From the NCBI GenBank assembly GCA_012329065.1, contig JAAXPZ010000008.1:1-37169 (forward strand): a stretch of 37,169 nucleotides of DNA. Reading direction: 5' to 3'. The notes under the pieces are model-generated. The model was not told the origin of the DNA, did not search any database, and was given only the letters and a program-made list of their open reading frames with translations. The position numbers were made by a program, and so were the translations under genes. The stretch's first letter is position 1; each line of letters begins with the position of its first letter. The DNA is from Sulfurovum sp. (lineage in GTDB: Bacteria > Campylobacterota > Campylobacteria > Campylobacterales > Sulfurovaceae). Positions 11,370 through 30,453 of this stretch are shown here, piece by piece.

Positions 11370-12779
11370 ATGAATCTTATGAATGTTGCAGGGCATATGC
11401 TTTTTCTGGCAGCTATCGGATACTATCTTATTACCAATTTGCAGTGGTATATCTATAAGATAAGCAGAGTACTTTTTAACCATACCAAGCCATGGTGGCA
11501 TCTTCTTTATTTTGTAATACCTTATGTGCTTTATCTCAGTGCAAATTATCTTGGCGGATATGGGTATATCGTTGCTATCTTATATGTGATAATGATATAT
11601 ATGTGGCACAAAGGGCTAGACAAGCCATTAGTGTGGACAGGAAGAGTCAGACGATTTTCGGTTCTTCTGATGTTTGTCACTCTATATATCTCGTTTACTT
11701 TTCATAATTTATCTGTATTGATTCCATTAATAGTGACCTATATTGCATCCTACTTTATTGAAAAGGTTTTATTTGGCAATTATAGGAGACGAGCGGAGCA
11801 GAAGCTTGATGATATGGAAGATATGATTACTATTGGAATCACGGCGAGTTATGGAAAAACTAGCATTAAAAATTTCATTGCACATTTGCTTTCTAGTAAA
11901 TACCGCACATACCCGACACCTAGATCAGTAAATACTTTTGGTGGAGTGGTTAGGGATATAAACGAAGATCTGCCTGAGGATACAGAGATATATGTCGTAG
12001 AGATGGGCGCTAGAGGCAAAGGTGATATAGCTGAGATAAGCACCTTTGTAAATCCACAATATGTCATAGTGGGTCAGATAGGTCCAGCACATATAGAGTA
12101 CTTCAAAACACTAGAAAATATACGCAACACAAAAATGGAGATTATTCAATCAGATAGACTCAAGGAAGCATGGGTGCACGAGAGTGCTCAAGTTAAGCCA
12201 GAGGATTATGTACATATATTTGGTGATGATATTAAAGATATAGAAGCGACACTCGATGGCACAAGTTTTACACTCGATGGCGTACGATATAGTGCAAGTA
12301 TTCTTGGGGCGTTTAACGCAGTAAATTTGGCAGTATCTGTGAAAATAGCCAGAGTATTGGGTCTGACTAATGATGAGATACAACAGGGTTTATCTACACT
12401 CAAAGCAGTAGACCATAGGCTCCAGCGTATCGATGCAGGAGGAAAGCTTATACTTGATGATAGCTATAATGGCAATATAGATGGCATGATGACAGCTTTT
12501 GATTTGGTATCTACTCATGGGGGGCGAAAAGTTCTTATTACTCCAGGATTGGTCGAGGTGGATGACGAGTTCAACGAGCAAGTAGCCAAACGAGCAAACG
12601 AGGTTTTTGATCTGGTGGTTGCAACTGGTGATTTGAATTATGAGATATTTAAAAAATATATAGATGATGAAAAGCTTCTAAAGCTACCCATAAAGAGTGC
12701 AATGGAGCAAATGCTAGCGGAACAGACTTATCCAGGAGATTTAATACTATTTGCTAACGATGCACCATCTTTTGTGTAA
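11370..12779 (+). CDS. murF: UDP-MurNAc-tripeptide--D-Ala-D-Ala ligase MurF
   Basis: Cytoplasmic ATP-dependent ligase that adds D-Ala-D-Ala to UDP-MurNAc-tripeptide. It has 469 residues. The first 130 residues are an unusual membrane part with four or five hydrophobic segments (such as LFLAAIGYYLITNLQWYIY and FVIPYVLYLSANYLGGYGYI), in place of the usual soluble MurF N-domain; I recall this form from Campylobacterota. The central Mur ligase domain starts with the P-loop GITASYGKTSIKN, followed by EMGARGKGDI, QIGPAHIEYF with the metal-binding His, and LGAFNAVNLAVSVKIA. The C-terminal domain has DHRLQRIDAGGKLILDDSYNGN. AAAGGGG upstream of ATG 11370 is a good ribosome binding site. It converges with recO, 16 bp apart. 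Confidence 0.95.
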   Translation: MNLMNVAGHMLFLAAIGYYLITNLQWYIYKISRVLFNHTKPWWHLLYFVIPYVLYLSANYLGGYGYIVAILYVIMIYMWHKGLDKPLVWTGRVRRFSVLLMFVTLYISFTFHNLSVLIPLIVTYIASYFIEKVLFGNYRRRAEQKLDDMEDMITIGITASYGKTSIKNFIAHLLSSKYRTYPTPRSVNTFGGVVRDINEDLPEDTEIYVVEMGARGKGDIAEISTFVNPQYVIVGQIGPAHIEYFKTLENIRNTKMEIIQSDRLKEAWVHESAQVKPEDYVHIFGDDIKDIEATLDGTSFTLDGVRYSASILGAFNAVNLAVSVKIARVLGLTNDEIQQGLSTLKAVDHRLQRIDAGGKLILDDSYNGNIDGMMTAFDLVSTHGGRKVLITPGLVEVDDEFNEQVAKRANEVFDLVVATGDLNYEIFKKYIDDEKLLKLPIKSAMEQMLAEQTYPGDLILFANDAPSFV

Positions 12780-13428: not shown

Positions 13429-13582
13429 CTATAGATGTAAACTTAACTATAATATAAAAGTATCAAAATGAAATTATTTTGTAACCAACTAGTAACTTTA
13501 TAGGGTTCCTCATTGTATATTTTAGAAACAGTCACTATACTTATAGCGTATCAAAATGATAACATTTACAGAAGGAACAAGA

Positions 13583-14641
13583 ATGAACAAGATTTTACTG
13601 GGTGCTTTGGCACTATCGTTTACCACAGGTGTGCTTATGGCACAAGACACTCTTAGGCTTATCACATGGAAGGGCTATGTGCCAGCAGAGCTAAAAGAGA
13701 AGTTTGAAAAAGAGACGGGCATCGAGCTAAAGATTACTTATTCAAACAATGAAGAGATGATCGCAAAGCTTAGAGCTACTAGGGGTGGTGGATTTGACCT
13801 TGCACAGCCAAGCCAAGACAGAATCAGCTTTGTGCAGAAAAAATTCCCTATCTATCAGCCAATAGATTATGCCAAGGTGAATACTGCTCAGCTTATCCCT
13901 TCTATGCTAGATGCTGTTAAGAAAAATACAGCAGTTGACGGCAAAGGATATGCTGTTCCTATGTGTTACGGAACAACTGGTCTTATAATTAACAAGAAAG
14001 AGGCTCCTGAAGCAGGTGATTGGTCTGATTTGTGGAATCCTAAGTATACAGGTAAAATTTCTTACAGACTTAAAAGACCACTTCTTATAGGTGCAGCGTT
14101 TGGTATGGGTGAAGATCCATTCTCTTTATATGGTGACAAAGCGGCATACGAGAAGTTGATTGAAAAAGTTACAAAGAAATTGATAGATAGTAAAAAAATG
14201 GTCAAGAACTACTGGACTAGTGGTGACACTCAAAAGGCCAACATTACTAGCGGTGATGTAGTAGTTCAATCAGGTTGGGATGGAATCGGCTGGCAGCTAC
14301 ACAAGGCTAATGCTGATATCGATTTTGTAGCACCAAAAAGTGGTGCACTTGGCTGGATAGATACTTATGCAATCCCTAAAAAGTCTAAAAATATTGAAGG
14401 TGCTTACAAATTTATTAACTTTATGCTAAAGCCTGAGAATGCAGCGTTCTTTACAAATAAAGAAGGTTATGGTACAGCATCACTTGGTGCAGAGAAGTTC
14501 CTAAATGACGAGATCAAAGCAAATTTTGCAAGATCATTTTCTAAAGCTGATATAGACAACATCAAATGGCATCCACCAGTACCAGCTGGTTTTGAAGAGA
14601 TTGAGTCTAAAGCACTTGAGAGAATCAAAGCAGCAAACTAA
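13583..14641 (+). CDS. PotD-family periplasmic binding protein, probably not polyamine-specific
   Basis: Periplasmic substrate-binding protein of an ABC importer, PotD/PotF family, 352 residues. Residues 1-20 are a signal peptide ending in LMA, mature start QDTLRLITWKGYVP. ATG 13583 has GAAGGA upstream, and TATACT at 13536-13541 is a possible -10 box. Compared with E. coli PotD recalled from memory, the tryptophans and the late WID aspartate are kept, but the segment holding the key acidic residues Asp168 and Glu171 aligns with YRLKRPL (residues 161-167 here), so Asp168 becomes Lys164 and Glu171 becomes Leu167. A ligand with positive amines would be poorly held. The downstream phosphodiesterase genes suggest an anionic organophosphate. 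The family is firm; the ligand is inference. Confidence 0.85.
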   Translation: MNKILLGALALSFTTGVLMAQDTLRLITWKGYVPAELKEKFEKETGIELKITYSNNEEMIAKLRATRGGGFDLAQPSQDRISFVQKKFPIYQPIDYAKVNTAQLIPSMLDAVKKNTAVDGKGYAVPMCYGTTGLIINKKEAPEAGDWSDLWNPKYTGKISYRLKRPLLIGAAFGMGEDPFSLYGDKAAYEKLIEKVTKKLIDSKKMVKNYWTSGDTQKANITSGDVVVQSGWDGIGWQLHKANADIDFVAPKSGALGWIDTYAIPKKSKNIEGAYKFINFMLKPENAAFFTNKEGYGTASLGAEKFLNDEIKANFARSFSKADIDNIKWHPPVPAGFEEIESKALERIKAAN

Positions 14642-14647
14642 TTGTTC

Positions 14648-14680
14648 CCAAAGAGCCTTCAGCTCTTTGGTGTAGTTTTT
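14648..14680 (+). terminator. Hairpin with T-rich tail after the binding-protein gene
   Basis: A perfect 9-bp stem, CCAAAGAGC at 14648-14656 and GCTCTTTGG at 14662-14670, with a 5-base loop lies just after the binding-protein stop and is followed by TGTAGTTTTT. It looks like a partial intrinsic terminator or RNA-stabilising hairpin. Such elements are common after the first gene of ABC importer operons, where the binding protein is needed in excess of the membrane parts. Confidence 0.75.
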
Positions 14681-14727: not shown

Positions 14728-15783
14728 ATGAGTAATATACTGGAAATCAAAGATATGTCAAAATTCTTTGATGATTTTACTGCAGCAGACAGTGTCAATC
14801 TTTCTGTCAAAGAGGGTGAATTTGTTTCTATATTAGGCCCTTCTGGATGTGGTAAGACGACACTTTTGAGGATAGTTGCAGGATTCTTGGAAGAGTCTCG
14901 TGGTGAGGTTCTGATCAAGGGTAAAAATATGAAGAGTGTCTCTCCTGAAAATAGACCAGTCAATATAGTATTTCAATCTTTGGCACTCTTTCCAATGATG
15001 AATGTGTATGAAAATGTAGCCTTTGGTCTAAAAAGAAAAAAACTAAACAAGCAAGAGATAGAAAAAGAGGTTTTATCTATGCTGGAGCGTGTAGGGCTTC
15101 AAGGTTTTGAAAAGAAGAAGATCAATGAGCTATCAGGAGGGCAGAAGCAGAGGGTTGCTATTGCTAGAAGCCTAGTTATGAAGCCATCTATTTTGCTTCT
15201 TGATGAGCCACTAAGTGCACTTGATAGAAAACTTAGAGAGCATATGAAAGTTGAGCTAAAAGAGCTACAAAGAGAGATAGGTACTACATTTATCTATATC
15301 ACACATGATCAGTCTGAAGCTCTTGTGATGAGTGACAGGGTGGCTGTCATGAATAAAGGTTTTTTAGAGCAGGTAGATACCCCTCAAAACTTATATAGAA
15401 ACCCAAAAACTGCATTTGTAGCAGGATTTGTTGGTGAGAACAATCGCTTTGAGATAGTTCGAAAAGAAGACAAAGAGATAATCACAAAAAGTGGGATGAG
15501 AATCAGTAGACCATGCCTTGAGTTTACACCAGATGTAATGTATATTCGTCCAGAAGCTTTTATGCTAGAGCCAAGCAAAGATATGGAAGATATAGCAGTT
15601 ATGGAGGCAGAGATTAAAACAATTCTTTTTGATGGAGCAAACACCAAGATGTCAGTACTTGTCGACAGCAGAGAAGAAGTGCTTATCGCACTTCAGCAAA
15701 ATGCAAAATTTCAAACACTCAAAGAGGGTGATGTCATCAAAATCGGTGTAGCATACGATAATATCAAATGTTACAAGGAGTAG
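14728..15783 (+). CDS. PotA-like ABC importer ATPase
   Basis: ATPase subunit of the importer, 351 residues, PotA/CysA-type subfamily. In order: Walker A GPSGCGKTT (about residue 37), Q-loop VFQSLALFP, signature LSGGQKQRVAIARS, Walker B ILLLDEP with D-loop SALD, and switch His in THDQSEA. The C-terminal third (from about residue 235) is the TOBE regulatory domain, with MYIRPEAFML. It begins 86 bp after the binding-protein gene and is separated from it by the hairpin. The following permease gene starts three bases after its stop, so ATPase and permeases are translated as one unit. ATPase sequence does not determine the substrate. Confidence 0.93.
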   Translation: MSNILEIKDMSKFFDDFTAADSVNLSVKEGEFVSILGPSGCGKTTLLRIVAGFLEESRGEVLIKGKNMKSVSPENRPVNIVFQSLALFPMMNVYENVAFGLKRKKLNKQEIEKEVLSMLERVGLQGFEKKKINELSGGQKQRVAIARSLVMKPSILLLDEPLSALDRKLREHMKVELKELQREIGTTFIYITHDQSEALVMSDRVAVMNKGFLEQVDTPQNLYRNPKTAFVAGFVGENNRFEIVRKEDKEIITKSGMRISRPCLEFTPDVMYIRPEAFMLEPSKDMEDIAVMEAEIKTILFDGANTKMSVLVDSREEVLIALQQNAKFQTLKEGDVIKIGVAYDNIKCYKE

Positions 15784-15786
15784 GGT

Positions 15787-16635
15787 ATGCAGGATAATAA
15801 AAAAGCATTTTATTTTCTGCTGATACCAGTATTGCTATGGCTTGTGATGTTGATTATCCTGCCACATGTAGATCTGTTTTTTAGTTCATTTAAGCCAAAT
15901 AGCGGCGAAGATACTTATACTCTTGAAAACTACCTTATATTCTTTCAGGATAAAATATACTGGTCGACTTTTCTCTATACAACTGCATATGCCATTGGTG
16001 TTACACTGTTGGCATTTATAGTAAGTTTTCCTGTTGCATTTTATCTTGTGAAGGTTATAAGCCCCAAACATGCTGCATTTTTGATGCTTATGTTGCTTAT
16101 ACCTCTGTGGATAGGAGAGCTTGTTACAATATATGGTTGGGTTATACTGCTGGGTGACAAGGGTGCAATAAATGAGTCACTGATATTTTTAGGAATTATA
16201 GATACACCCATCACTATGCTCTATACCAACTTTAGTATGATTATTGGTCTTTTGTATATGTCCATGTTATTTATGATTATACCTATCATGACGACCTTGG
16301 AGAGCCTTGATGATGCACAGATAGAGGCTGCCAGTGATCTGGGCGCTAGTAAATTTACTATTTTTAAATCTATTGTTATACCTCACTCAATGCCAGGTAT
16401 AATTAATGGTTCAATTATTGTCTTTATGCTAGTTATTGGTGACTATCTCGCACCAAATATTCTAGGAGGCAAGAGTTCATTGTGGTTTACAGAGCAGATA
16501 TACAATCAGTTCTTGTCAACATTTAACTGGAATCAAGGTGCCGCATTTGGCTTTCTGTTGCTAATAATATCATCAGCTACCATATGGGCAGCCCTTAGGT
16601 TGTCTGGACAAAAATTAGAAAAGGTAGAAAATTAA
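15787..16635 (+). CDS. PotB-like ABC importer permease
   Basis: First inner-membrane permease of the importer, 282 residues with six hydrophobic segments. The cytoplasmic coupling loop (EAA motif) is EAASDLGASKFTIFKSIVIPH, which contacts the ATPase. Other family features are the early TTAYAIGVTLLAFIVSFPVAF helix, WIGELVTIYGWVILLGDKG and the late DYLAPNILGG segment typical of PotB/PotH. It lies three bases after the ATPase gene, and the second permease starts one base after its stop. Confidence 0.92.
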   Translation: MQDNKKAFYFLLIPVLLWLVMLIILPHVDLFFSSFKPNSGEDTYTLENYLIFFQDKIYWSTFLYTTAYAIGVTLLAFIVSFPVAFYLVKVISPKHAAFLMLMLLIPLWIGELVTIYGWVILLGDKGAINESLIFLGIIDTPITMLYTNFSMIIGLLYMSMLFMIIPIMTTLESLDDAQIEAASDLGASKFTIFKSIVIPHSMPGIINGSIIVFMLVIGDYLAPNILGGKSSLWFTEQIYNQFLSTFNWNQGAAFGFLLLIISSATIWAALRLSGQKLEKVEN

Positions 16636-16636
16636 T

Positions 16637-17488
16637 ATGATACAATCACTTCCAAACTCACCTGTATATAAATATGGGTATAGACTGTATATCGCATTAT
16701 TTTTTGCCTTTTTACTTTTGCCACTTATAGCGATATCTGTATTGGCATTTAATGACACAACATCAATTACTCTTCCTTGGAAAGGTTTTACATTAGATTG
16801 GTTTTTTGCTGATACTACAGCAAGAAAAGGTCTTTTTAGCGATGCAGACCTTCTTCAGAGTATATGGATCAGCTTACAGACAGCATTTTTGATGGCAGGA
16901 CTATCTACTGTTGTGGGCACAATTGCTGCATTATTGTTTGAACAGTATAACTTTAGATTTAAGAACTTACTTTACTTCTTTGCTATTGCTCCTTTAGTTA
17001 TACCCGGTGTTATACTTGGTATATCTATTCTGCTTGGCTCAACCTATGTAGGGGGGATTTTGGATACAAAATTTGGCATAGATCTTGAGATATTTGGTCC
17101 AGGGTTTTGGCTTGTTGTTTTGGGACAATTCTCTTTTGGTGCCACTTATGTAATGCTACTTGTGGCTGCCAGACTCAAAAAGTTTGACTTCGCACTTGAA
17201 GAAGCTGCATTAAGTCTAAAGGCAAGCAGATTAGAGTCTATATGGTATATCACAATTCCATTCCTTAAGCCTGCTATTATCGGTGCATTTGTGGTAGCAT
17301 TTTTGATGAGTTTTGCAAATTTCAACACAACGATATTTTTGATAGGCTCTGATCCTACATTGCCAGTTGATCTCTATTCTAGAATTAAATTTAGTTCCAC
17401 ACCAGTACTAAATGCAGTTTCGTTTATGATTATACTTATTATCACGATTGTTGCAACTGCCAGTGTATTTATAAAAAAGAAAAAATAG
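16637..17488 (+). CDS. PotC-like ABC importer permease
   Basis: Second inner-membrane permease of the importer, 283 residues, six hydrophobic segments. It begins with a short cytosolic part and a large periplasmic loop (FNDTTSITLPWKGFTLDWFF) typical of PotC/PotI. The EAA coupling loop is EEAALSLKASRLESIWYITIP. The last TAG overlaps the GTG start of the next gene by one base, so the phosphoesterase is translated right after the permease, a strong sign that it acts on the imported compound. Confidence 0.92.
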   Translation: MIQSLPNSPVYKYGYRLYIALFFAFLLLPLIAISVLAFNDTTSITLPWKGFTLDWFFADTTARKGLFSDADLLQSIWISLQTAFLMAGLSTVVGTIAALLFEQYNFRFKNLLYFFAIAPLVIPGVILGISILLGSTYVGGILDTKFGIDLEIFGPGFWLVVLGQFSFGATYVMLLVAARLKKFDFALEEAALSLKASRLESIWYITIPFLKPAIIGAFVVAFLMSFANFNTTIFLIGSDPTLPVDLYSRIKFSSTPVLNAVSFMIILIITIVATASVFIKKKK

Positions 17489-18291
17489 TGAAGATAATTC
17501 ATCTGACAGATACCCATCTGCTGGAGACACAGGGGGACAATTTATATGGACTGAACCCTGCATATAGACTTAAAAGGGCACTTAAAAGTATAGGCAGATT
17601 ACATAAAGATGCAGATTGCATCGTAATCACTGGTGATTTGGTCAATGAGCCATCTATAAAGGCCTACAGGGTATTGCAAGAGCTATTGGAAGAATCCAAA
17701 ATTCCAGTTTACTTACTGGTGGGAAATCATGATAGCAGGCAACAATTTGGAAAACATTTCCCCGACTTTATACAAGATGGGTTCGTACAGTATGAAGCAG
17801 AGATAGATGGTCGTATACTGTTGTTTCTAGATACCCTAGTAGAGGGAGAGTCTTATGGTATGCTTTGTGATGAAAGAATACTCTGGCTAAAAAAGAGACT
17901 CAAAAAGCATAAAAAGAAGGATGTATTACTCTTCATGCATCATCATCCAGTAGAGTCAGGACTCTACGAGATGGACAGTAATGCAAATTTCAGGACAAAA
18001 GATGCCTTTTGGGATCTTCTTGTCGAGTATGATTGTGTTAAGCATATAGCTTTTGGACATCTGCATCGTATCATGCATGCTACATACAAAGGTATTGCTA
18101 CTCACTCTACTAGAAGTACTACCTTTCAAGTCTCTTATCAGCCTCACAGTAACTCTGAGCATCTTACAAATCAGGAAAAGGCGACTTATGCTATTATTGA
18201 GATAAACAAGCATGGTACTATACGGATACACCACCATGAGTATCTAAATGAGAAGATGTATTACAAGGACGAGTCAAGGTTTTCGGGATGA
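17488..18291 (+). CDS. Metallophosphoesterase, GpdQ/CpdA-like phosphodiesterase
   Basis: Binuclear-metal phosphodiesterase, 267 residues, without signal peptide, so cytosolic. The full metal-site set is present: DTH (residues 7-9), GDLVNE, GNHD, MHHHP and GHLH. The LYG after the first motif and the THSTRSTTFQVSYQ C-terminal strand resemble class III cyclic-nucleotide/glycerophosphodiester phosphodiesterases (CpdA, GpdQ) and related phosphonate-diesterases. The family alone allows cAMP hydrolysis; the position between the importer and a second glycerophosphodiesterase favours cleavage of an imported phosphodiester. GTG 17488 overlaps the permease stop, and the 3' end overlaps the next gene by 4 bp. 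Confidence 0.88.
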   Translation: MKIIHLTDTHLLETQGDNLYGLNPAYRLKRALKSIGRLHKDADCIVITGDLVNEPSIKAYRVLQELLEESKIPVYLLVGNHDSRQQFGKHFPDFIQDGFVQYEAEIDGRILLFLDTLVEGESYGMLCDERILWLKKRLKKHKKKDVLLFMHHHPVESGLYEMDSNANFRTKDAFWDLLVEYDCVKHIAFGHLHRIMHATYKGIATHSTRSTTFQVSYQPHSNSEHLTNQEKATYAIIEINKHGTIRIHHHEYLNEKMYYKDESRFSG

Positions 18292-19094
18292 ACTTTATGG
18301 ATCAGTTTAGCTCAAACAAACTGGTTGTAGCACATCGTGGATATCGTGCCTGCTATCCAGAAAACACACTGCTGTCATTTAAAAAAAGCTTAGGAAAGTG
18401 TGACCTTATAGAACTTGATGTGGGATTTAGTAAAGACGGTATGGCTATTGTCATACATGATGATACGCTTGATAGAACTACAGATGTTGCCTCAGTAGAT
18501 TGTTTTGATTTCCCATATAATATCGTAGATTATGAATATGATATGATAGAAAGCCTAGATGCTTCATCATGGTTTGTTCGTAGTGACCCTTTTGGAACTA
18601 TCTCGCAAAATATTGTTTCTATACAAGAGTTGCAAGAATCTCCTATCCAAAAGATACCAACCTTAAAAGAGGTACTCATCTTTTTAAAGCAAAATAATAT
18701 GCCTGTAAATGTTGAGCTTAAGGATATGAGCGGTACCAAGTTTGATGCTCTAGCTACAGAAAAAGTATTGGATATAATACATGACCTTGATATGGTAGAT
18801 ATGGTGATAATCTCTTCTTTTAATCATGCTTATCTTCGCCAAGTAAAGAAAGTAAATCCAAATATTTGCATTGCTGTCTTGCAAATATATGAAAATATAG
18901 AAAATATTGTTGAGTATTTAAAAAGCCTAGATGCATCATGTTATCACCCGGAGCTAGGAATTGCAAACAGAAGAGTTGTTCAGAAGGTATCAGATGCTGG
19001 AATTATGGTAAATGTTTTTACAGTGAACGACCCTAAAGACCAAGAGCGTTTGTATGGTTATGGGGCAAGGAGTATATTTACAGATTTTTTATAA
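18288..19094 (+). CDS. Glycerophosphodiester phosphodiesterase (GDPD/UgpQ type)
   Basis: Hydrolyses glycerophosphodiesters to sn-glycerol-3-phosphate and an alcohol. It has 268 residues and no signal peptide, so it is the cytosolic UgpQ type. The TIM-barrel active site is visible: AHRGYRACYPENT (His and Arg), ELDVGFSKDGMAIVIHDDTLDRTTD with the metal-binding Glu and Asp and the second catalytic His, and NVELK. The end has VFTVNDPKDQERLYGYGARSIFTDF, matching the closing barrel strand. An insert of about 35 residues after DRTTD is longer than in E. coli UgpQ. ATG 18288 overlaps the preceding stop by 4 bp; the pyruvate kinase ribosome binding site starts at the stop codon. Confidence 0.92.
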   Translation: MNFMDQFSSNKLVVAHRGYRACYPENTLLSFKKSLGKCDLIELDVGFSKDGMAIVIHDDTLDRTTDVASVDCFDFPYNIVDYEYDMIESLDASSWFVRSDPFGTISQNIVSIQELQESPIQKIPTLKEVLIFLKQNNMPVNVELKDMSGTKFDALATEKVLDIIHDLDMVDMVIISSFNHAYLRQVKKVNPNICIAVLQIYENIENIVEYLKSLDASCYHPELGIANRRVVQKVSDAGIMVNVFTVNDPKDQERLYGYGARSIFTDFL

Positions 19095-19104
19095 AGGAGA
19101 CATC

Positions 19105-20541
19105 ATGAGTGCAAGTACCAAAATAGTGGCTACCTTAGGTCCAGCAAGCAATAGTTTAAAGATGATAACAAAGCTCATGAAGGCGGGAGTAAGCATATTC
19201 CGCCTTAATTTTTCACATGGTAGTCATGCTGAGCATCTTGAGACATTGAATATCATAAGAGCTGCATCCAAACAACTTCAGGTTACAATAGCAGTGCTTC
19301 AGGATATCTCTGGCCCAAAGCTAAGAATAGGCGATATAGATAGACAGTTTGATCTAAAAGAAGGAGATCAGATAACTTTTGTCTATGAGTGTGTAATAGG
19401 TTATCAGGTTAGTATAGATTCCTATGTGGTAAGCATAAATTATCCAGATATTCTAAAAAGAGTTAAGGAGGGTGAGTATATATATCTCTACGATGGAACC
19501 ATACGAGCTAAAGTTGTATCCGTAGGGGAAAATGTAAAGGTTAGAGTAGAAAACAATGGTCTTTTAAGTTCCAAAAAAGGGGTTAATTTCCCAAACACTG
19601 AGATAGGAATTGATGTACTTACGAGCAAAGATCGAGAAGATATAGCTTGGGGTGTTGCCAATGGTGTAGATATGTTTGCCATATCATTTGTGCAAAATGC
19701 AGATGATATATTAAGTGTAAGCAACTTGCTAGATGGATATGACGCCAAGATAATTGCAAAAATAGAGAAGTTTGATGCCATAGAACATATTGATGAGATT
19801 TTGGCAGTATCAGATGGGCTGATGGTGGCAAGAGGTGATTTGGGTATAGAAGTGCCTTATTATGAGGTTCCCACTCTTCAGAAAATGCTCATACGAAAAG
19901 CTAACGAGCAAGCAAAGCCGATCATCACAGCCACTCAGATGCTCTTGAGTATGACTAGAAGTCCAAGTCCTACCAGGGCTGAAGTCTCTGATGTTGCCAA
20001 TGCGGTTTTGGATGGTACTGATATGGTCATGCTGTCAGAGGAGAGTGCTATAGGTGACAATCCCGTAAATACTGTAGAGACTATGAGTAGTATCATTAGG
20101 CAAACGGAGAGGATTTATCCTTGTCGCAGAAAAGAAATATGGAAATCATACGATAAAGGCAATATCATCGAGCGTTCTGTAGTCAATATCGCAGACAAAC
20201 TGGGAGCTACAGGTATCCTATCTTTGACAAGTTCAGGAAGAAGTACAGTGAAAATATCCAGATTTAGACCCAAGACAAAAATATATGCATTTACGCATAC
20301 ACAAAGTCTGCTAAACCAATTAAGTATGTTGTGGGGCGTGACACCTATAGTCAAACTACCAATCTTGTCACCATCTAAGCTTATACAGGCTATGCTTGTC
20401 GCACTAGATGATGCAGGTAGACTTGATAAAAATGGATTATATATCACAGCTATCGGATATCCAGCAGGAGTGCCTGGATCCACCAATACCATCAAGATAC
20501 TCAATGAGGCAGAAATCTTATATTATTTGAACTTAGATTGA
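19105..20541 (+). CDS. pyk: Pyruvate kinase
   Basis: Converts phosphoenolpyruvate and ADP to pyruvate and ATP. It has 478 residues, normal length. Seen are the N-terminal STKIVATLGPASN, FRLNFSHGSHAEH with the ATP-contact residues, LQDISGPKLRIG, IAKIEKFDAIEHIDEIL with the catalytic Lys and metal-binding Glu, MVARGDLGIEVP, and MTRSPSPTRAEVSDVANAVLDGTD. The C-terminal effector domain is present. ATG 19105 has AAAGGAGA at 19093-19100, which begins on the last base pair of the upstream stop, so it is the last gene of the importer-phosphodiesterase operon. Its place there suggests that carbon from the imported substrate flows to pyruvate. A right half of the MITE-like repeat abuts the stop. Confidence 0.95.
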   Translation: MSASTKIVATLGPASNSLKMITKLMKAGVSIFRLNFSHGSHAEHLETLNIIRAASKQLQVTIAVLQDISGPKLRIGDIDRQFDLKEGDQITFVYECVIGYQVSIDSYVVSINYPDILKRVKEGEYIYLYDGTIRAKVVSVGENVKVRVENNGLLSSKKGVNFPNTEIGIDVLTSKDREDIAWGVANGVDMFAISFVQNADDILSVSNLLDGYDAKIIAKIEKFDAIEHIDEILAVSDGLMVARGDLGIEVPYYEVPTLQKMLIRKANEQAKPIITATQMLLSMTRSPSPTRAEVSDVANAVLDGTDMVMLSEESAIGDNPVNTVETMSSIIRQTERIYPCRRKEIWKSYDKGNIIERSVVNIADKLGATGILSLTSSGRSTVKISRFRPKTKIYAFTHTQSLLNQLSMLWGVTPIVKLPILSPSKLIQAMLVALDDAGRLDKNGLYITAIGYPAGVPGSTNTIKILNEAEILYYLNLD

Positions 20542-21823: not shown

Positions 21824-22492
21824 TTAATCTTCTTTGGAGAATGATTTATCAAGTTTTAGAATACCATCTTTCATGCTATATACTTGGTCAGCAAGTAGGT
21901 TACAATCCTCTATTTCATGAGTGATCATAATGGTGTGTAGGTTATTGTCTTCGGTTATCTTTTTGACTAGATCAAGCATTTGTAGCCTAGTCTCTCTATC
22001 TAGTCCAGTAAAAGGCTCGTCAAGTAAGAGTATAGGCTTGTTGCGAAGCAGTGCACGAGCTAGTGCTACTCTCTGCTGTTGTCCGCCTGATAGTTCTGTG
22101 GCAAGCTTTTGTTCATGTTTTGAAAGGTTCATTTGGGATAGTATCTCTTTGACCCTACCTAGCTGCTCTTTATTAGCTTTCCCTTTTGGGTTTATGCCTA
22201 GTAGTATATTTTTATGCACAGAAAGATGCTCAAAAAGATTATGCTGTTGAAAAAGTATAGTGACTGGTCTCTTTTCTATAGGTAGCTCGAGTAATTCTTC
22301 ATCATCAAGCTTAACAGATCCACTATCTGCATCTAGGAACCCTGCGATCAGATCAAGCATGGTTGACTTACCGCTACCACTTTCACCCAGTACTCCGATA
22401 ATTTTGCCAGAAGACATCTGTAGGGCAAAATGATAAGTGTATATTGTGGCGACAGTTTTATAGCTGTATGTCAGATTTTCTATATTGAGCAT
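21824..22492 (-). CDS. thiQ: Thiamine ABC importer ATPase ThiQ
   Basis: ATPase of the thiamine/TPP importer, 222 residues, the short ThiQ form without a C-terminal regulatory domain. Walker A GESGSGKST, signature LSGGQQQRVALARA, Walker B ILLLDEP and switch His in ITHEIED are all present. ATG 22492 is preceded by AGGGAGA; the frame extends to 22507 but that adds no family sequence. It overlaps the 3' end of the permease gene by 35 bp, so the two are translationally linked. Confidence 0.9.
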   Translation of the reverse strand: MLNIENLTYSYKTVATIYTYHFALQMSSGKIIGVLGESGSGKSTMLDLIAGFLDADSGSVKLDDEELLELPIEKRPVTILFQQHNLFEHLSVHKNILLGINPKGKANKEQLGRVKEILSQMNLSKHEQKLATELSGGQQQRVALARALLRNKPILLLDEPFTGLDRETRLQMLDLVKKITEDNNLHTIMITHEIEDCNLLADQVYSMKDGILKLDKSFSKED

Positions 22493-24113
22493 TCTCTCCC
22501 TTTGCAAATATTCTTGGTATTATAACAAAGAGACCCAAAACCAAGACTAGAAGTATTAGTGCAACTCCTGCTGCATCACTATTACGGTATGATCCCATAA
22601 GCTGATATAAGTACCAAGGAAGTGTAGTGATCTCATCACTCCCAAAGAGAGCAATCACTCCTAGGTCTCCAAGTGACAATGCAAAAGATAGAGCAAAAAT
22701 ATAGCTTATGGATGAGCGGAGATATGGTATCTCGCAATATCTCCATCGTACCAATGTGCTAAGCCCAAGAGAGAGGGTCAGCTTATCATACCTATAAGCA
22801 GTTTTCTGCATAGCAGGATAGATAATCGAGAGGGCAAAAGGTAGACTCATCAAAACATTGGCAGTGAGTACCGCTATCATCGCCCAAATAATCATAGGTG
22901 CTTCAAACCTCTGTGATATAAGAAAGAATCCAAAACCAAGTATGAGTGAGGGGATAGCTAGATATAAGTTCCCTGAAAAAGCTATCATTAATTCCAGTGT
23001 CTTGCTAAACTTAGAGTCCGAGATCTTAAATGGCAGGATGAAATTGCGTCTTGCATCGCTGAGAAGTAGGGCAAATAGTACAGTCAGACAGGCAGAGACT
23101 GTGGCAATAGCCAAGCTGATACTAAGCGATCTTATAAAGAGTGGATTTGTGACAATTCTTATAAAGTCTGCTTGTATACCGTCTGCAACTATGGCAATAA
23201 GTGGTAATATAAAAATAATTGTCGATAGAGCTATAATGGCTCTTTGGAGCAAGCCTCTATTTTTTGGTTCTCTCCATGTTATGAGGCTATTGGAGGTTTT
23301 TAGATTTCCTGATCCTACTCTGAAACTAGATGATAGGAGAACGAGCATTATAGATATGCTAAGCTGAATAAGAGCAAGTTTGAGAGCAAAAGGAATATCA
23401 AAATCTATCTTAATAGCCTCATAGATGGCAACTTCTAGTGTGTTGTTCGACGGTGATCCTCCAAGAAGCAATACTATGGCAAAAGAGGTAAAGCAGAGCA
23501 GAAATATAGTAGCAGCCATACTTACTATCGTTACTCTGATAGCCACCCACTCCACAAGCCAAAATCTCTGCCATGCGGAGAAGTTTAGACTCTTGGCAAG
23601 TCTATATTTCTCTTTGGGTATAGATTCAAAGCTATGCAGTAAGCCTCTTGATGCAAATGATGCATTGAGATAGACATGAGCTATCAAAATACCTGCAAGA
23701 CCATAGAGCCAACCTCCAAATGAATAGTCGAAGAGGTATAGAGATAGTCTGTTTAGCCAACCGTTGTTGCCAAGAATAGTAATCATTCCAAAAGCCACTA
23801 TGAGTGTAGGCAGTACAAGAGAAGATGAAAAGAGTGCAATAAGTAGGCTTCGTCCCTTGAAATTTGCTTGATGTGTGAGACTCCATGCCAATACTGTCCC
23901 AGCAGATACAGATAGTACAGTGGATATGCTAGCTTGATATAGTGTAAACTTCACAAGTCCCATGATTCTATCGTCTATGATAGAGATTGGAGCGGCGTCC
24001 GAAAAATTGTAAAGTAAACTGAATAATAGAACTGCAAAAGAGAGTAGGGCTATAGATATGGTGAGCCCTGGGATAACAGAGGCTCTAAATCTCCATATCT
24101 CTTTGTGTAGCAT
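22458..24113 (-). CDS. thiP: Thiamine ABC importer permease ThiP
   Basis: Two-domain inner-membrane permease of the thiamine importer, 551 residues, with about twelve hydrophobic segments. Two EAA-type coupling loops are visible, one in each half, around KYRLAKSLNFSAWQRFWLVEW and RYDKLTLSLGLSTLVRWRYCEIP, as in ThiP and FbpB-type fused permeases. The start could be GTG 24140 (overlapping thiB) or ATG 24113 (two bases after the thiB stop); I prefer 24113, which puts MLHKEIWRFRASVIPGL just before the first helix. Substrate assignment rests on the TPP riboswitch and the ThiB partner, since the sequence alone would also allow an iron importer. Confidence 0.88.
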   Translation of the reverse strand: MLHKEIWRFRASVIPGLTISIALLSFAVLLFSLLYNFSDAAPISIIDDRIMGLVKFTLYQASISTVLSVSAGTVLAWSLTHQANFKGRSLLIALFSSSLVLPTLIVAFGMITILGNNGWLNRLSLYLFDYSFGGWLYGLAGILIAHVYLNASFASRGLLHSFESIPKEKYRLAKSLNFSAWQRFWLVEWVAIRVTIVSMAATIFLLCFTSFAIVLLLGGSPSNNTLEVAIYEAIKIDFDIPFALKLALIQLSISIMLVLLSSSFRVGSGNLKTSNSLITWREPKNRGLLQRAIIALSTIIFILPLIAIVADGIQADFIRIVTNPLFIRSLSISLAIATVSACLTVLFALLLSDARRNFILPFKISDSKFSKTLELMIAFSGNLYLAIPSLILGFGFFLISQRFEAPMIIWAMIAVLTANVLMSLPFALSIIYPAMQKTAYRYDKLTLSLGLSTLVRWRYCEIPYLRSSISYIFALSFALSLGDLGVIALFGSDEITTLPWYLYQLMGSYRNSDAAGVALILLVLVLGLFVIIPRIFAKGENAQYRKSDIQL

Positions 24114-24115
24114 AC

Positions 24116-25322: not shown

Positions 25323-26201
25323 TCATTTAATCTTCCGTATAAACAATCCACCCAATATCAAGACAAGTGCTACCCATACATTTATTTCTGGTATTGAATT
25401 GAAGAATAGCCATGACCAAAATATGGTAAACATAGGAATGAGATATGATACCTGAGACATGAACTGTACCCCAGTTCTCTGAACTAGATTAATCCGCATG
25501 AGTGAGGCTAGGGCGGTGGGTACTATAGCTAAGTATATGATGGTCAAGAACGGATAAGAGAGTAGCGAGATACTGCTTGGAGGCACAAGTAATATAAAAG
25601 GAAACATCATTAGTGACGCTGTGAGAAACATAGAGCAGGAGCAGACGAGGGTATTGATGTGATGTAATTTCCTTATCAAAAAGCCAGATGTTATGTAACC
25701 CATGACAGCTATGAGCATGGCAACTTTGCCATAAAGACCATATATATCGCCAGAAAAGAAATCATCCCCAAAGAGGATAAATATGCCAATAAAACCCATA
25801 GAAACGCCGATAAGTTTAAATATATTTATTTTCTCGTCATGCGTGACAAAATGAGATGTAATCAGTGCAATAAACGGCCCAACTGCTAACAATACAGCAG
25901 CAGTGCTTGCTGAGACATACTGTTGACCCCATGAGATGAGATAGAAGGGCATAGCATTGTTGAGCAGTCCTAGCACGATAAGCATGACCCAGCTTTTTTT
26001 ATCTCTAGGGAAGGAGAACTTTCTGAATAGGATAAACAGTAACAATAAAAGTGCAGCTATTGATATCCTATAAAAAGCCACTTGGAATGGATGGAATCCA
26101 GTCAAGGCATACTCTATACCCACAAAAGCACTGCCCCATATGGCTGATAGCAACATAAGCCAAAAATAGTCTATGTGTCTAGCATTTTGAATTGTTTTCA
26201 A
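25323..26201 (-). CDS. EamA/DMT-family permease in the glp operon
   Basis: A 292-residue inner-membrane permease with ten hydrophobic segments and two EamA repeats, each opening with the family pattern (MLLSAIWGSAFVGIEYAL and the repeat near residue 150, VAMLIAVMGYITSGFLI). Drug/metabolite transporters of this type move small metabolites, often as exporters; the substrate cannot be read from sequence. The start is TTG 26201, which overlaps the stop of the upstream flavoprotein gene as TTGA, so it belongs to the glycerol-3-phosphate operon and may move a related metabolite. A second, only distantly similar EamA gene lies at 32279-33193. Confidence 0.88.
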   Translation of the reverse strand: MKTIQNARHIDYFWLMLLSAIWGSAFVGIEYALTGFHPFQVAFYRISIAALLLLLFILFRKFSFPRDKKSWVMLIVLGLLNNAMPFYLISWGQQYVSASTAAVLLAVGPFIALITSHFVTHDEKINIFKLIGVSMGFIGIFILFGDDFFSGDIYGLYGKVAMLIAVMGYITSGFLIRKLHHINTLVCSCSMFLTASLMMFPFILLVPPSSISLLSYPFLTIIYLAIVPTALASLMRINLVQRTGVQFMSQVSYLIPMFTIFWSWLFFNSIPEINVWVALVLILGGLFIRKIK

Positions 26202-27445
26202 CTTTTCTGCTCTTCTTTGTATGTCACTTCCAGCCTATCGGATTTTTTGATAGGAATATTGAACCAGTCAACTGTTATACTTAGATATGGTACTGCACTT
26301 ATCTCTTGTCTCATCACCTCTTTATCGTTTAGCAGAATATTGAGTACACCTTTTGTATGTTTTGGGAATCTTATCTTGCACAGGTATTTCTGCTTTTTGT
26401 TACACTCTATGAGAGTAGGATAACACCACCCTATAGCTCCACCTATCTCTATCTTGACTGTGATAGGAATATCATTTTTTTGTAGCGATTTATGTATTGC
26501 TATTCCAGCTTTTTTGCCCTCGAAATAGCAGTTGAATGCCGTTAGTGCACCTCTGATCACATTACCTGCTAGAAAATACCGTTTATCTTTTGTTTGGAAG
26601 TTGTGTGTTATATCTGTAGAGCGGTTAAGTAGGTTGAAGTCATGTAAATGCTTCTGTAGCAAAGAACTCTCAGGAACAAAGCCACCAGAAAAAATCACAG
26701 CGTCACATTCTATGGTTTGCTCTGTATTGTTCTTGGAAATAGTAATACTTTTTACTTCTTTGTCTTCAGTGTTTATGCTTAGAAGCTTTGTGGATGTGTG
26801 AACTGGCGTTTTTAGTAGATATTTGGATGCATAGCTAAGTATACTAAAACTTTTGATTTTATCTTCTTCTTCGATGATTCCTGTGACCTCTATGCCTGCC
26901 TCTCTTGCCGTCATAATAGCAGAGAATGATACTATCTCACTTCCTATGATTACTGCTTTATTGAAAGGCTTACGATGGTGAATGTGCACAAATCTTTGCA
27001 GGGCTCCTGTGGTTATAATATTTGGACTTCTGCCGCCACTTATTGCCATAGAAGACCGTGTAGTTTCTCTGGCTCCCATAGCAAATAGAATTCTTTTTGC
27101 TATGTATTTGATCTCTCCATCTATGGTACTAAATGTTAGAATATCACCATTAATATGAGTTAGCGAATGTTTGAGTTTGATTGCCACGGAATGCTCTTTG
27201 GCTTTTCTCTCAAGAGTCATGGCATAATCCAAACCAGTCATAGGTCTATAGAATTCCATCAGTCCAAACCCCTGATGATCGCAGTGTCTGGATGTCATGG
27301 CTACTTGGTTTTCCCTGTCAAAGACCAGCATATTTTTGTCATGTCCAAGCTTGGATAGTTCTATGGCAGCAGCTATTCCTGCAGGCCCAGCTCCAATGAT
27401 AGCAATATCTATCTCAATAGGCTCTCCTATATCATTTTGGTACAT
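26198..27445 (-). CDS. GlpB-like NAD(P)/FAD-dependent oxidoreductase
   Basis: A 415-residue pyridine-nucleotide-disulfide-type flavoprotein without the redox Cys pair. The Rossmann motif is IIGAGPAGIAAAIELSK, then MGARETTRSSMAISGGRSPNII, the NAD(P)-side IIGSEIVSFSAIMTAREAG, and VIFSGGFVPESSLL before the last FAD contact FLAGNVIRGALTAFNCYFEGKKAG. About 85 C-terminal residues form an extra beta-rich domain. Proteins of this kind pair with a BFD-carrying GlpA-like dehydrogenase, as here, and are thought to pass electrons onward. In Firmicutes a small DUF1667 protein usually completes the set; none is present. The start overlaps the upstream stop by 19 bp. Confidence 0.85.
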   Translation of the reverse strand: MYQNDIGEPIEIDIAIIGAGPAGIAAAIELSKLGHDKNMLVFDRENQVAMTSRHCDHQGFGLMEFYRPMTGLDYAMTLERKAKEHSVAIKLKHSLTHINGDILTFSTIDGEIKYIAKRILFAMGARETTRSSMAISGGRSPNIITTGALQRFVHIHHRKPFNKAVIIGSEIVSFSAIMTAREAGIEVTGIIEEEDKIKSFSILSYASKYLLKTPVHTSTKLLSINTEDKEVKSITISKNNTEQTIECDAVIFSGGFVPESSLLQKHLHDFNLLNRSTDITHNFQTKDKRYFLAGNVIRGALTAFNCYFEGKKAGIAIHKSLQKNDIPITVKIEIGGAIGWCYPTLIECNKKQKYLCKIRFPKHTKGVLNILLNDKEVMRQEISAVPYLSITVDWFNIPIKKSDRLEVTYKEEQKS

Positions 27446-28887
27446 GATTTCTTTACCTCACTTTCACATATACTTGCTACGCTTGCCATGCAGTTGAATC
27501 CTTGACACCTACCCATCATAGCTCTGGTACGCCTTTTGAGTCCGCTCATTGTTCCTGCTGGAGTATCTCCTACGCATGCCTCTCTGATTTCCCTATCTGT
27601 TACCATCTCACAATGACACACGATTCGCCCATATCCAGCTACCTGATGATCTCTACTGCTAAATTGTGAAATATTTGGAATGGATATTTTTTTACTTGCT
27701 TTAGGTGAGTTATATTTTGTATCATTTAGCTCATAAACATGTTTTGCCAATCCAAGAGCAGAAGTGAGTCCAGTTGATCGTATGCCACCAACAGTAATCC
27801 AATTTTTCTCATCATTAAATTTGACTCTATAATATGTCTCATCTGAAGCAGGTCTGAGTCCAGCAAATATCGCCGTGACCTCATGTTCTTCAAGTGCTGG
27901 TAGCATAGTGTATGCTTTCTGTTTGAGATCTTCCAGTGTTTCTTTTGTGGTTATGCTATCTATTCTGTTATCTTGGTCTTCAGCTGTAGGTCCTACCAGA
28001 AGATTACCAAAAGCAGTTTTAGTGATGACAACACCTTTGGTTCTCTTAGTTGGCACAGGTAGTATGATAGAATTGATTAGGTCATATGCTGTCTCATCAA
28101 AGATAAGAAATTGTCCTTTTCTTGGAATGATTTTAAAGTCGATATTTCCACTTATCTTTTCAACTATATCTCCATATAGACCAGCTGCATTGATTACAAC
28201 TTTTGCCCTAATAGGATTTTGTTTTGTATCCAGCTCCCAATATGCACCATTGTGCTTTCCATTTGTAACCTCATGACTAAAAGCTGTTTTTCCTCCACAG
28301 GATATGCCTTTTTTGACATAAGCAAGTGGGGCACTCCAAGCATCGATGACCGCCTCACCATGTACTATGATAGCACCTTGTGCATTTTTTGATAGATTTG
28401 GCTCCATAGAGAGCACCTTTGATGAGGCTATCTGCTCTAGCTCCTGAACGCCATTTCCAAGTCCTTTTTTCAATATGCCATCTAGCTTCTCTAGCTGTTC
28501 TTCATTCCATGCGACTACCATTGCCTTGGTGTGCAATATCTGTAGATTCAGCTCATCTTTGAGCTTCAAGAACTCATCATAACCTTTTTGAACACATGCA
28601 AGCTCTAAGCTCTCTGCTGGAGCATCAAAGCCTGTGTGGAGTAAGGCACTGTTGCCTTTACTAGCACCTTCTAATATATCATTTTCTTTTTCGATCAACA
28701 CGGCTTTGGCACCCTGCTCACAAAACTCTTTAAATATAGCACAGCCCACTACACCTGCACCGATAATAGCGATGTCAAATATTTCATTTTTCTGAAACTT
28801 TTTGTGTCGAATTGGAAAAATTGTATTTAAGTTGATAGTATTCATGTTTGGCCTAGCTCTGATTTGGTATGGTTTTTTTTTCGACAT
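27427..28887 (-). CDS. GlpA-like glycerol-3-phosphate dehydrogenase with BFD [2Fe-2S] domain
   Basis: A 486-residue FAD protein of the DAO family. An N-terminal extension of about 37 residues precedes the Rossmann motif IAIIGAGVVGCAIFKEF. The segment SKGNSALLHTGFDAP matches the FAD-covering loop of GlpA/GlpO-type enzymes, with GLRPASDETYYRV and GGIRSTGLTSALGLAKHVYE near the end of the catalytic domain. The last 60 residues are a BFD-type [2Fe-2S] domain with Cys-x-Cys in IVCHCEMV and Cys-x4-Cys in GRCQGFNC. Likely role: oxidation of sn-glycerol-3-phosphate, or of a related 2-hydroxy compound, with the following flavoprotein as partner. AAGGAG before ATG 28887 lies within the end of glpD. Confidence 0.87.
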   Translation of the reverse strand: MSKKKPYQIRARPNMNTINLNTIFPIRHKKFQKNEIFDIAIIGAGVVGCAIFKEFCEQGAKAVLIEKENDILEGASKGNSALLHTGFDAPAESLELACVQKGYDEFLKLKDELNLQILHTKAMVVAWNEEQLEKLDGILKKGLGNGVQELEQIASSKVLSMEPNLSKNAQGAIIVHGEAVIDAWSAPLAYVKKGISCGGKTAFSHEVTNGKHNGAYWELDTKQNPIRAKVVINAAGLYGDIVEKISGNIDFKIIPRKGQFLIFDETAYDLINSIILPVPTKRTKGVVITKTAFGNLLVGPTAEDQDNRIDSITTKETLEDLKQKAYTMLPALEEHEVTAIFAGLRPASDETYYRVKFNDEKNWITVGGIRSTGLTSALGLAKHVYELNDTKYNSPKASKKISIPNISQFSSRDHQVAGYGRIVCHCEMVTDREIREACVGDTPAGTMSGLKRRTRAMMGRCQGFNCMASVASICESEVKKSCTKMI

Positions 28888-28890
28888 AAT

Positions 28891-30453
28891 TTATACTCCT
28901 TCTGTAAGCAAAGTTTTAGCTTCCAACTCTAATGTATCCCTTGTGTCTTTATCCCACCTGAGTACATCTTGCATAATATCGCAAACGCGAGGCAATATCT
29001 CTAGTGACATCGCTCTGTTTTTGAGCCCAAGATTGATCCGTCTTACGATAAAGTCTAGTGGTTTTTTGACATATTCATATCGGATACAGTAGAGTAGCTC
29101 TGCTATCATTGTTTCATTTTTGGGATGTAATTTAGCTGAAGCATTTTCACTATTGGCGATCTCTATGACCTTATAAGATTGGTCTCCGTATAGATTTTTT
29201 AGATGTTTTTCTATGTTTGTAGCCGTGATATCTTTCTGGCTCCCTACAACTCTGTATTGATTTGTTTTGCATGGGTGGCTCTGCGTGGTCTTTCCTAATT
29301 TCTGTAGTACAAGGTCTATAGTAGATTCTGACATGGATCTATAGCTAGTCCACTTGCCACCAGCCACGGTCATAAGTCCAGAGTTTGAGAATACTGCTAT
29401 ATGTTCTCTAGCTATTGTTGCTGTGCTTTTTGCTTCATTTTGCTTCAGTAGAGGACGAATACCAGCAAAGGTAGCAAGAATATCATATTTATAAATATGA
29501 ATATTAAGATATTCATTAATATTTTTTAATAGGTAAGAAATTTCTTCTTCTTCTGCTCTAGGATGTTCACTTATGTTACACACTATATCGTTAGTTCCTA
29601 TTAGACAGTTGCCTTGATAGGGGAGCACAAACAGAACCCTGCCATCACTTGTTTTGGGTATCATAATGCCTTTAGGTGACGGCAAGAATTTTTTATCTAC
29701 AATGATATGTATGCCACTACTTGTTTGTATTATTTGCTTACATTCAGCCTCATCTAATTTTCTAACTTCATCTATAAAAGGCCCAGTAGCATTTATGACT
29801 ATCGATGCTTCTATAGAGAAGGTTTTAGAACTTAGCTTATCCCATATAGAGACAGCAACTATCTTACCACTTTTTTTCTGGAAGGATATGAGCTTATGAT
29901 GATTGTGGGCACCCGCTCCATTTTCTTGGGCACTTTGAAGTAATGCTATTGTCATCCTGCTATCATTGAATGTTCCATCATAATAGCTGACTGCTGCTTT
30001 AAGCCCTTTGGGGCTAATCGCTGGGTTGAGCGCAAGAGTTTTTTTGGCAGATAATATTTTACTTTTGCCTAGAGTAGCGTTGCCTGAGATTATGTCATAC
30101 AGGAAAAGTCCAGCATAAATATAGGGAACTTCCCACCATCGATATAAGGGAGTGATTAGCTCGATAGTATTAGCTAAATGAGGAGCATTTTGCAAGAAAA
30201 GTTTTCTTTCTCTGAGTCCTTCTTTGACTAGACTATATTGAGCCCTATCACATCTTTTAACTGCCGCTTCAAGATACCTTACTCCTCCATGGATAAGTTT
30301 GGTGCTTCTGCTACTGGTTCCTTCTGCAAAATCATTTTGTTCAAACAGTATCACAGAAAGCCCTCGCAATGAGGCATCTAGAGCAATACCTGCACCAGTA
30401 GCTCCTCCTCCTATTATGACAATATCATACTGCTTGTCTATTGTATTATCCAT
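28891..30453 (-). CDS. glpD: Aerobic-type glycerol-3-phosphate dehydrogenase GlpD
   Basis: Membrane-associated FAD enzyme that oxidises sn-glycerol-3-phosphate to dihydroxyacetone phosphate and reduces quinone. At 520 residues it has the normal length. Seen are the Rossmann motif VIIGGGATGAGIALDASLRG, the strongly conserved GTSSRSTKLIHGGVRYLE, the ERKLFLQNAPHL segment, INATGPFIDEVR and VAGGKWTSYRSMSE, then the C-terminal helical domain. First gene of a four-gene operon (glpD, GlpA-like, GlpB-like, EamA). An 8-bp inverted repeat (TATCCATC at 30447-30454 and GATGGATA at 30474-30481) spans the start codon and could be an operator or translation-control hairpin. No glycerol kinase or facilitator gene is nearby. 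Confidence 0.95.
   Translation of the reverse strand: MDNTIDKQYDIVIIGGGATGAGIALDASLRGLSVILFEQNDFAEGTSSRSTKLIHGGVRYLEAAVKRCDRAQYSLVKEGLRERKLFLQNAPHLANTIELITPLYRWWEVPYIYAGLFLYDIISGNATLGKSKILSAKKTLALNPAISPKGLKAAVSYYDGTFNDSRMTIALLQSAQENGAGAHNHHKLISFQKKSGKIVAVSIWDKLSSKTFSIEASIVINATGPFIDEVRKLDEAECKQIIQTSSGIHIIVDKKFLPSPKGIMIPKTSDGRVLFVLPYQGNCLIGTNDIVCNISEHPRAEEEEISYLLKNINEYLNIHIYKYDILATFAGIRPLLKQNEAKSTATIAREHIAVFSNSGLMTVAGGKWTSYRSMSESTIDLVLQKLGKTTQSHPCKTNQYRVVGSQKDITATNIEKHLKNLYGDQSYKVIEIANSENASAKLHPKNETMIAELLYCIRYEYVKKPLDFIVRRINLGLKNRAMSLEILPRVCDIMQDVLRWDKDTRDTLELEAKTLLTEGV

Follow-up and report, generated by a model that had tools for sequence, protein, structure and literature searches.

A PotD-family importer of probably switched ligand class encoded beside phosphodiesterase genes in Sulfurovum

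The receptor gene and its surroundings

The window, that is, the whole stretch of Sulfurovum sp. DNA analysed here (37,169 nucleotides), carries on its forward strand a 361-residue open reading frame (13556..14641) for a PotD-like periplasmic substrate-binding protein (SBP), recognized by the Pfam model SBP_bac_8, by NCBIfam models, by its AlphaFold2 model and by fold matches. The true start of the SBP is probably the ATG at 13583, which, as judged by eye, is preceded by an AGAAGGA-like ribosome site; residues are numbered here from the start of the ORF at 13556, and the residue numbers of an earlier note on this DNA, counted from the ATG, are 9 lower. Pfam matches are confined to SBP_bac_8, 1, 6 and 11, and the best NCBIfam model is that of PotD (NF007048), at 146 bits against a cut-off of 582, which is a weak test for PotD since the 20 true PotDs of the control described below (372–443 bits) also fall under it. 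The AlphaFold2 model (81 sequences) has a mean pLDDT of 91.7. Its top Foldseek match is 7xjm, VcPotD1 with spermidine (E 1.6e-27), and in VIA the top PotF and PotD chains give Z-scores of 34–35 and an rmsd of 2.4–2.7 across ∼315 residues, so that the predicted fold of the SBP is the PotD/PotF fold. The superposition on PotD and PotF that the earlier note had proposed thus confirms a common fold, the comparison being one at fold level. The GABA-binding proteins 4eq7 and 8jv1 are also among the same-fold VIA matches.

The SBP gene heads an operon in which it is followed by genes for an ATPase (14728..15783), two permeases that are PotB-like (15787..16635) and PotC/PotI-like (16637..17488), a calcineurin-type phosphoesterase (17488..18291) and a glycerophosphodiester phosphodiesterase (GDPD; 18288..19094), all on the forward strand. 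The ATPase and permeases were assigned by family models and by the synteny of relatives; the ATPase is PhnT2/PotA-like, with PhnT2 as its best-scoring model, although the protein exceeds the cut-off of none of the 25 models listed. SBP and ATPase genes are separated by 86 bases, and the later gaps are of 1–3 bases or are overlaps. Within the 86 bases lies a terminator-like hairpin with a T-rich tail (14648..14670, forward strand), detected by a pattern scan (2 found against a shuffle mean of 1.0) and with a fold z-score of -2.04, which perhaps damps downstream expression; such a hairpin would suit a receptor made in excess over its transporter. Downstream, a pyruvate kinase ORF (19054..20541, forward strand; NCBIfam above cut-off) overlaps the end of the GDPD gene. 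Its true start is probably later than 19054, and it may be on the same transcript as the operon.

The calcineurin-like phosphoesterase (PF00149) resembles GpdQ, SpdA and Icc. Its best solved match is 2dxl/2zo9 (E 6e-22 for 2dxl), which we take to be GpdQ, with the metal-ligand motifs aligned; the motifs D-x-H, GD, GNHD, HH and GHxH mark GpdQ-like metallophosphoesterases. In NCBIfam the best model is SpdA, a 2′,3′-cyclic nucleotide phosphodiesterase, at 191 bits against a cut-off of 400. The GDPD is UgpQ-like (PF03009, 130.6 bits against 23.6) and its alignment retains AHRG, ENT, IELD and HDxxxDRTT. Both phosphodiesterases are apparently cytoplasmic, because their catalytic motifs start within the first 18 residues (D-x-H at residues 8–10 of the phosphoesterase, HRG at 16–18 of the GDPD) and leave no room for a signal peptide.

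Genes of glycerol-phosphate metabolism lie further along on the reverse strand. They are a GlpD-type glycerol-3-phosphate dehydrogenase (28891..30453; PF16901 DAO_C over cut-off, NF008899 at 300 bits of 360), a FAD enzyme with a BFD domain that is like GlpA or type-2 glycerol-3-phosphate oxidases (27427..28887; 240 bits of a cut-off of 460), and a flavoprotein of the pyridine-nucleotide-disulphide type (26198..27445), whose gene in relatives commonly accompanies the GlpA-like one. A ThiB-ThiP-ThiQ-like thiamine ABC importer (21824-25111, reverse strand), of which ThiB is over its curated cut-off, separates the PotD-like operon from these glp-type genes. A model search did not find GlpT in the window's genome, and GlpT was above cut-off in 1 of 11 genomes tested, a result that counts in favour of the reading proposed below.

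Pocket residues and the motif clade

In PotD, spermidine is held by four acids, Glu36, Asp168, Glu171 and Asp257. Bases 14060–14086 of the window encode S169, Y170, R171, L172, K173, R174, P175, L176 and L177, and include a charge-reversed segment, Y-R-L-K-R-P-L (residues 170–176; 14063..14083, forward strand), in which K173 corresponds to PotD Asp168 and L176 to PotD Glu171. Both pairings had been claimed in the earlier note, there as Lys164 and Leu167, from an ungapped alignment to E. coli PotD; here the letters and numbering of E. coli PotD were taken from phmmer output for 8y5h, with W34-T35-E36-Y37 in place. A MAFFT alignment of the SBP with 80 relatives and E. coli PotD brings D168 to K173 and E171 to L176, and the same ungapped register, at a probability of 100, comes from an hhalign comparison of the family profile with one built from E. 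coli PotD and 20 control-class PotDs. Single-sequence phmmer opens a 4-residue gap after K173, which leaves the D168 pairing unchanged and sets Ala180 opposite Glu171. All three alignments thus have Lys at the Asp168 position and a non-acidic residue at that of Glu171. The lysine claim is accordingly borne out by every method and the leucine claim by MAFFT and hhalign, agreements on which misalignment was rejected. In the AlphaFold2 model a strand spans residues 168–170 and a helix starts at 174, which is compatible with this register but no proof of it.

A scan of named genomes returned 210 relatives, and the counts that follow rest on the best 80 of the 210 (59–89% identical). Their titles include Sulfurovum, Nitratifractor, Sulfurospirillum, Arcobacter, Desulfocapsa, Desulfuromusa and Thiotrichaceae, names suggesting that many are vent or sediment organisms. 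The window and 80/80 of these best relatives share R171, L172, K173, R174 and P175, a conservation by which chance or a local mutation was rejected as the explanation. In the segment profile across homologs that the earlier note had called for, these five positions are uniform, and the two arginines to which it had drawn attention (its Arg162 and Arg165, here R171 and R174) are invariant. At the Glu171 position the 80 relatives have T (31), L (29), I (19) or V (1), and at the Glu36 position G (77), S (2) or D (1). Among the four spermidine-holding acids, only Asp257 (Asp269 in the window SBP) is kept, in 80/80, one relative having an acid at 36. Trp34, Trp229 and Trp255 (PotD numbering) are retained in the 80 relatives, in agreement with the earlier note's statement that the tryptophan box is otherwise intact. 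Asp242, at the position of PotD Asn230, is Asp in 81/81 rows, window included, and Asp88 (PotD Tyr85) is invariant in the motif family, Asp being found there also in 9 of 20 true PotDs. Acids filling the pocket in place of those lost were the circumstance that the earlier note had named as counting against it; they occur in part, the Asp257 position being acidic and that of Asn230 becoming so, and none occurs at the Asp168 and Glu171 positions. With Asp257 kept and Asp242 gained, the pocket as read from the alignment is re-set and not simply cationic.

The SBP gene of a relative, L009 (1501-2544; the same place as L120 and L245), 64% identical to that of the window, has an in-frame TGA at the first pocket tryptophan, which is otherwise invariant, and the rest of the gene is open; the genome consists of one contig, and sequencing error, a broken gene and recoding are all possible. 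L086 (Nonlabens) and L088 (Arcobacter) seemingly represent one SBP locus, with equal identity to the window and the same neighbour start, which suggests a mis-assigned contig.

As a control, matches to the PotD model were sorted by score tier in 199 genomes of the class of Halodesulfovibrio, which we take to be Desulfovibrionia. Regions spanning ∼8.5 kb per side, shortened by contig ends in four low-tier, one top-tier and one middle-tier cases, were collected for 20 top-tier (372–443 bits), 18 middle-tier (155–204) and 20 low-tier (110–137) matches, and the top-tier and low-tier sets have 19 genomes in common. The top-tier proteins, regarded as true PotDs, have D or E at 168 in 20/20, E at 36 in 19/20 and an acid at 171 in 16/20. 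Middle-tier proteins have Ser at 168 and mostly retain Glu36 and Glu171, and the low-tier proteins have YR[LVM]KRP together with G at 36 in 20/20. An unrooted tree of 155 sequences contains one branch (length 0.81, local support 1.0) that parts 106 motif sequences from the 49 others; a support value of 0.251 on the same tree is an artefact of re-rooting, by which support labels were shifted. On the evidence of these alignments and the tree, the motif is characteristic of a clade whose members are found in genomes that also encode true PotDs, and the lost pocket acids and gained basic residues are a fixed feature of that clade.

More distant relatives were found in a search of plasmid records, 17 of which matched, the 15 listed being 31–54% identical. 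Five were examined, four alphaproteobacterial and one from Paraburkholderia; the segment is YRLKRP in three and MRLRRT or MRIRRP in two, with a basic residue at the Asp168 position in all five. The neighbour genes described below were absent from these five loci when sought with the same models. One of the SBP genes directly follows ugpBAEC, and alphaproteobacterial ones have genes for aldehyde or alcohol dehydrogenases or for TRAP transporters close by, so the ligand may differ in the alpha- and betaproteobacterial relatives.

That the SBP is still a polyamine receptor, its substitutions being offset by other Asp residues, seems very improbable. In its favour are the conserved fold, aromatic box and Asp257, the presence of Asp88 and Asp242, PotD as the best NCBIfam model and one plasmid record that annotates the relative as PotD; against it stand the loss of Glu36, Asp168 and Glu171, the basic residue that all 80 relatives have at position 168, and the occurrence of true PotDs in the same genomes. 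A polyamine receptor as annotated was rejected on the pocket residues together with gene context.

Gene neighbourhoods of motif loci and of true PotDs

Neighbouring ORFs were clustered, cluster representatives were named by family search and the clusters were turned into search models; with the exception of the Pfam GDPD model, these derive from the family's own loci and could miss divergent genes elsewhere. Around the 80 relatives, a GDPD was found nearby in 36, a GpdQ-like enzyme in 29, both in 15 and either in 50, and a glp-type gene (GlpD, the GlpA-like enzyme, GlpK or a DeoR/GlpR-type regulator) lies near 39. At least one sought gene is present near 60/80; a few of the counted matches are weak (in L058 and L059, GDPD at 85–87 bits and GlpD at 232–241 bits). 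The remaining 20/80 are without sought neighbours, many being on short contigs, but L099 and L103 have full flanks. Downstream sequence suffices for a comparison of gene order in 55 loci, and in 36 of these the gene after that of the second permease encodes a phosphodiesterase on the same strand. GpdQ-like and UgpQ-like enzymes have unrelated folds and have the hydrolysis of glycerophosphodiesters as a common known activity, so that their interchange in one slot points to a common activity on glycerophosphodiesters. In L087 a type I phosphodiesterase/nucleotide pyrophosphatase (11831-12604) occupies the slot of the GDPD or metallophosphoesterase.

Motif loci of the control class have a GDPD within ∼8.5 kb in 11/20 cases, against 0/20 for true-PotD loci and 0/18 for middle-tier loci, an excess at the motif loci with a Fisher p of 7e-7. 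A circular control, arising from family-derived models, was dismissed by a renewed search of 21 control genomes with the Pfam GDPD model, which found 24 GDPD genes, 11 of them next to the 11 motif loci already counted. The 8.5-kb flanks of the 20 true-PotD loci had no GDPD gene, and neither had those of the 11 middle-tier regions, out of 18, that lie in these 21 genomes. The 20 control-class motif regions contained no glp-type gene or GpdQ-like enzyme, and 9 of them had none of the sought neighbours. Among 298 genomes drawn from the window's own class, judged by their identifiers to be the same set in each search, the motif protein is present in 9, the motif having been read in all of these, and GlpD is over cut-off in 20, namely in 6/9 motif genomes against 14/289 others (p 3e-6, uncorrected for kinship); in three of the nine motif genomes GlpD is below cut-off.

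Residues and neighbours together speak against a polyamine receptor and favour a phosphorylated ligand, anionic or zwitterionic. The earlier note's inclination toward an anionic or neutral ligand in place of a polyamine is in this way supported, by a charge change fixed in a clade and by phosphodiesterase and glp neighbours that are missing around true PotDs of the control class.

Whether the ligand need contain phosphorus at all can be questioned, since the GABA-binding relatives 4eq7 and 8jv1 have the same fold and alphaproteobacterial relatives adjoin aldehyde or alcohol dehydrogenases or TRAP transporters. An anionic or zwitterionic ligand without phosphorus, such as a carboxylate or an amino acid, with the genomic link being secondary, is nevertheless improbable in view of the strong phosphodiesterase and glp link in the 80 relatives and its absence around the control true PotDs.

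Somewhat less remote, if still unlikely, is a receptor for another organophosphorus compound, with the phosphodiesterases acting on other substrates. Candidates would be glycerol-3-phosphate by itself, a phosphonate such as 2-aminoethylphosphonate, and a nucleotide diester, either cyclic or short. In its favour are the best models of the ATPase (PhnT2) and of the metallophosphoesterase (SpdA), and loci that carry glp genes where no phosphodiesterase was found. So too is the setting of the importer in L045 (1522-7836) and L046, both Sulfurovum, where it follows genes for a CBS/histidine kinase, a glycerol-3-phosphate cytidylyltransferase fused to a GFO/IDH oxidoreductase, a PhnW-like aminotransferase and LicD; the genes of L045 were named by family search and those of L046 equated by the same gene starts. 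Glycerol-3-phosphate alone, however, needs no GDPD or GpdQ-like enzyme, of which one follows the second permease in most of the loci counted above, and a phosphonate is disfavoured by the score of the SBP in the phnS2 model, 37 bits against a cut-off of 393. As a general ligand, 2-aminoethylphosphonate is countered by the occurrence of the PhnW-like gene in L045 and L046 only, among 29 loci inspected. Downstream of the L045 importer is another metallophosphoesterase, and the L045/L046 cluster is possibly one for surface phospho-decoration.

Proposed ligand and comparison with known systems

The preferred reading, which we regard as probable on the strength of residues and neighbours, is that of a PotD-family importer repurposed for glycerophosphodiesters and/or sn-glycerol-3-phosphate. 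The SBP would serve as periplasmic receptor for an ABC importer of the PotABCD type that has switched from polyamines to glycerol-phosphate compounds. Its likeliest ligands would be glycerophosphodiesters, the head groups left by deacylation of phospholipids (glycerophospho-ethanolamine, -choline or -glycerol, for example), and perhaps sn-glycerol-3-phosphate. What we infer of ligand binding is that the retained tryptophan/tyrosine clamp would grip the ligand between the lobes, that the basic YRLKRP at the PotD Asp168/Glu171 site would hold the phosphate, and that Asp269 (PotD Asp257) and Asp242 would hold hydroxyls or an amine. As the phosphodiesterases apparently lack a signal peptide, the diester would have to enter uncut; cleavage by the GpdQ-like enzyme, the UgpQ-like one or both would follow in the cytoplasm, and the freed glycerol-3-phosphate would then be converted by GlpD or the GlpA-like enzyme to dihydroxyacetone phosphate for lower glycolysis.

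With PotD and PotF (PotABCD, PotFGHI) the window system has in common the fold, the make-up of SBP, ATPase and two permeases, the aromatic box and Asp257. It differs in having K for Asp168, T, L, I or V for Glu171 and nearly always G for Glu36, in the basic RLKRP segment, in its gene neighbourhood and in forming its own clade. UgpBAEC and UgpQ provide the precedent of ABC import of a diester followed by a cytoplasmic phosphodiesterase of the UgpQ type, so that the uptake proposed here would have the same substrates (glycerol-3-phosphate and glycerophosphodiesters) and the same logic of import and then cleavage. The window phosphodiesterases match the families of GpdQ (Enterobacter aerogenes) and E. 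coli UgpQ, catalytic motifs included, and neither of these two enzymes is known to come from a PotABCD-type operon. PhnD belongs to another Pfam family than the window SBP, for which no phosphonate-binding (PhnD-type) Pfam match was obtained as would go with membership of the PhnT family of GpxB and PhnD; the UgpB model is absent among its 8 NCBIfam matches (E up to 0.001). Membership of both the UgpB and PhnD groups was judged by sequence models only; that neither family figures among the structural matches listed carries no weight.

UgpB, of the CUT1 family, and GpxB, of the PhnT family, are stated to be the only G1P transporters known to date (PMC12718374). According to the same paper, the amine-binding Glu177 and Asp205 of PhnD correspond to Arg223 and Thr247 in the glycerol-phosphate receptor GpxB, for which its authors suggest a specificity for G1P/G3P (PMC12718374). 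GpxB is like the window SBP in that amine-binding acids have been replaced, in GpxB on the way to glycerol phosphate (PMC12718374), and unlike it in belonging to a different SBP family (3.A.1.9). By analogy, the pocket change described here would be a parallel to that from PhnD to GpxB in a third receptor family. A search of the open-licence PMC literature found no PotD-type receptor for glycerol phosphate or glycerophosphodiesters.

A bolder extension is doubtful at present: that glycerol-phosphate uptake arose independently a third time in this clade, in addition to UgpB and GpxB, that its half-reversed pocket, with aromatic box and Asp257 kept, is fitted to zwitterionic glycerophospho-ethanolamine or -choline, and that it is a main recycling route for membrane-lipid C, P and N in sulfur bacteria that by their names inhabit vents or sediments. 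Taken by itself, the occurrence of a widespread PotD-family importer that has probably switched ligand class would mean, if true, that a sizeable clade of importers resembling spermidine/putrescine transporters are phospholipid-recycling transporters, and would shift metabolic models of these organisms from polyamine uptake to the use of lipid debris. It would also be a clean case of a ligand switch, from amine to phosphate on one fold by few fixed residues, that echoes the one from PhnD to GpxB. The pattern [YM]R-x-[KR]-R-[PT], taken from the sequences examined, could serve as an annotation rule.

A further PotD-like type was met with in L020 and L246, which have RAHSS or RAHSA at the segment, WSDY at the Glu36 site and FWSNAQET later in the sequence, possibly reflecting another ligand switch. 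The search of the 298 genomes of the window's class also returned a tenth match (E 6e-62) with a different segment, VRAHSA.
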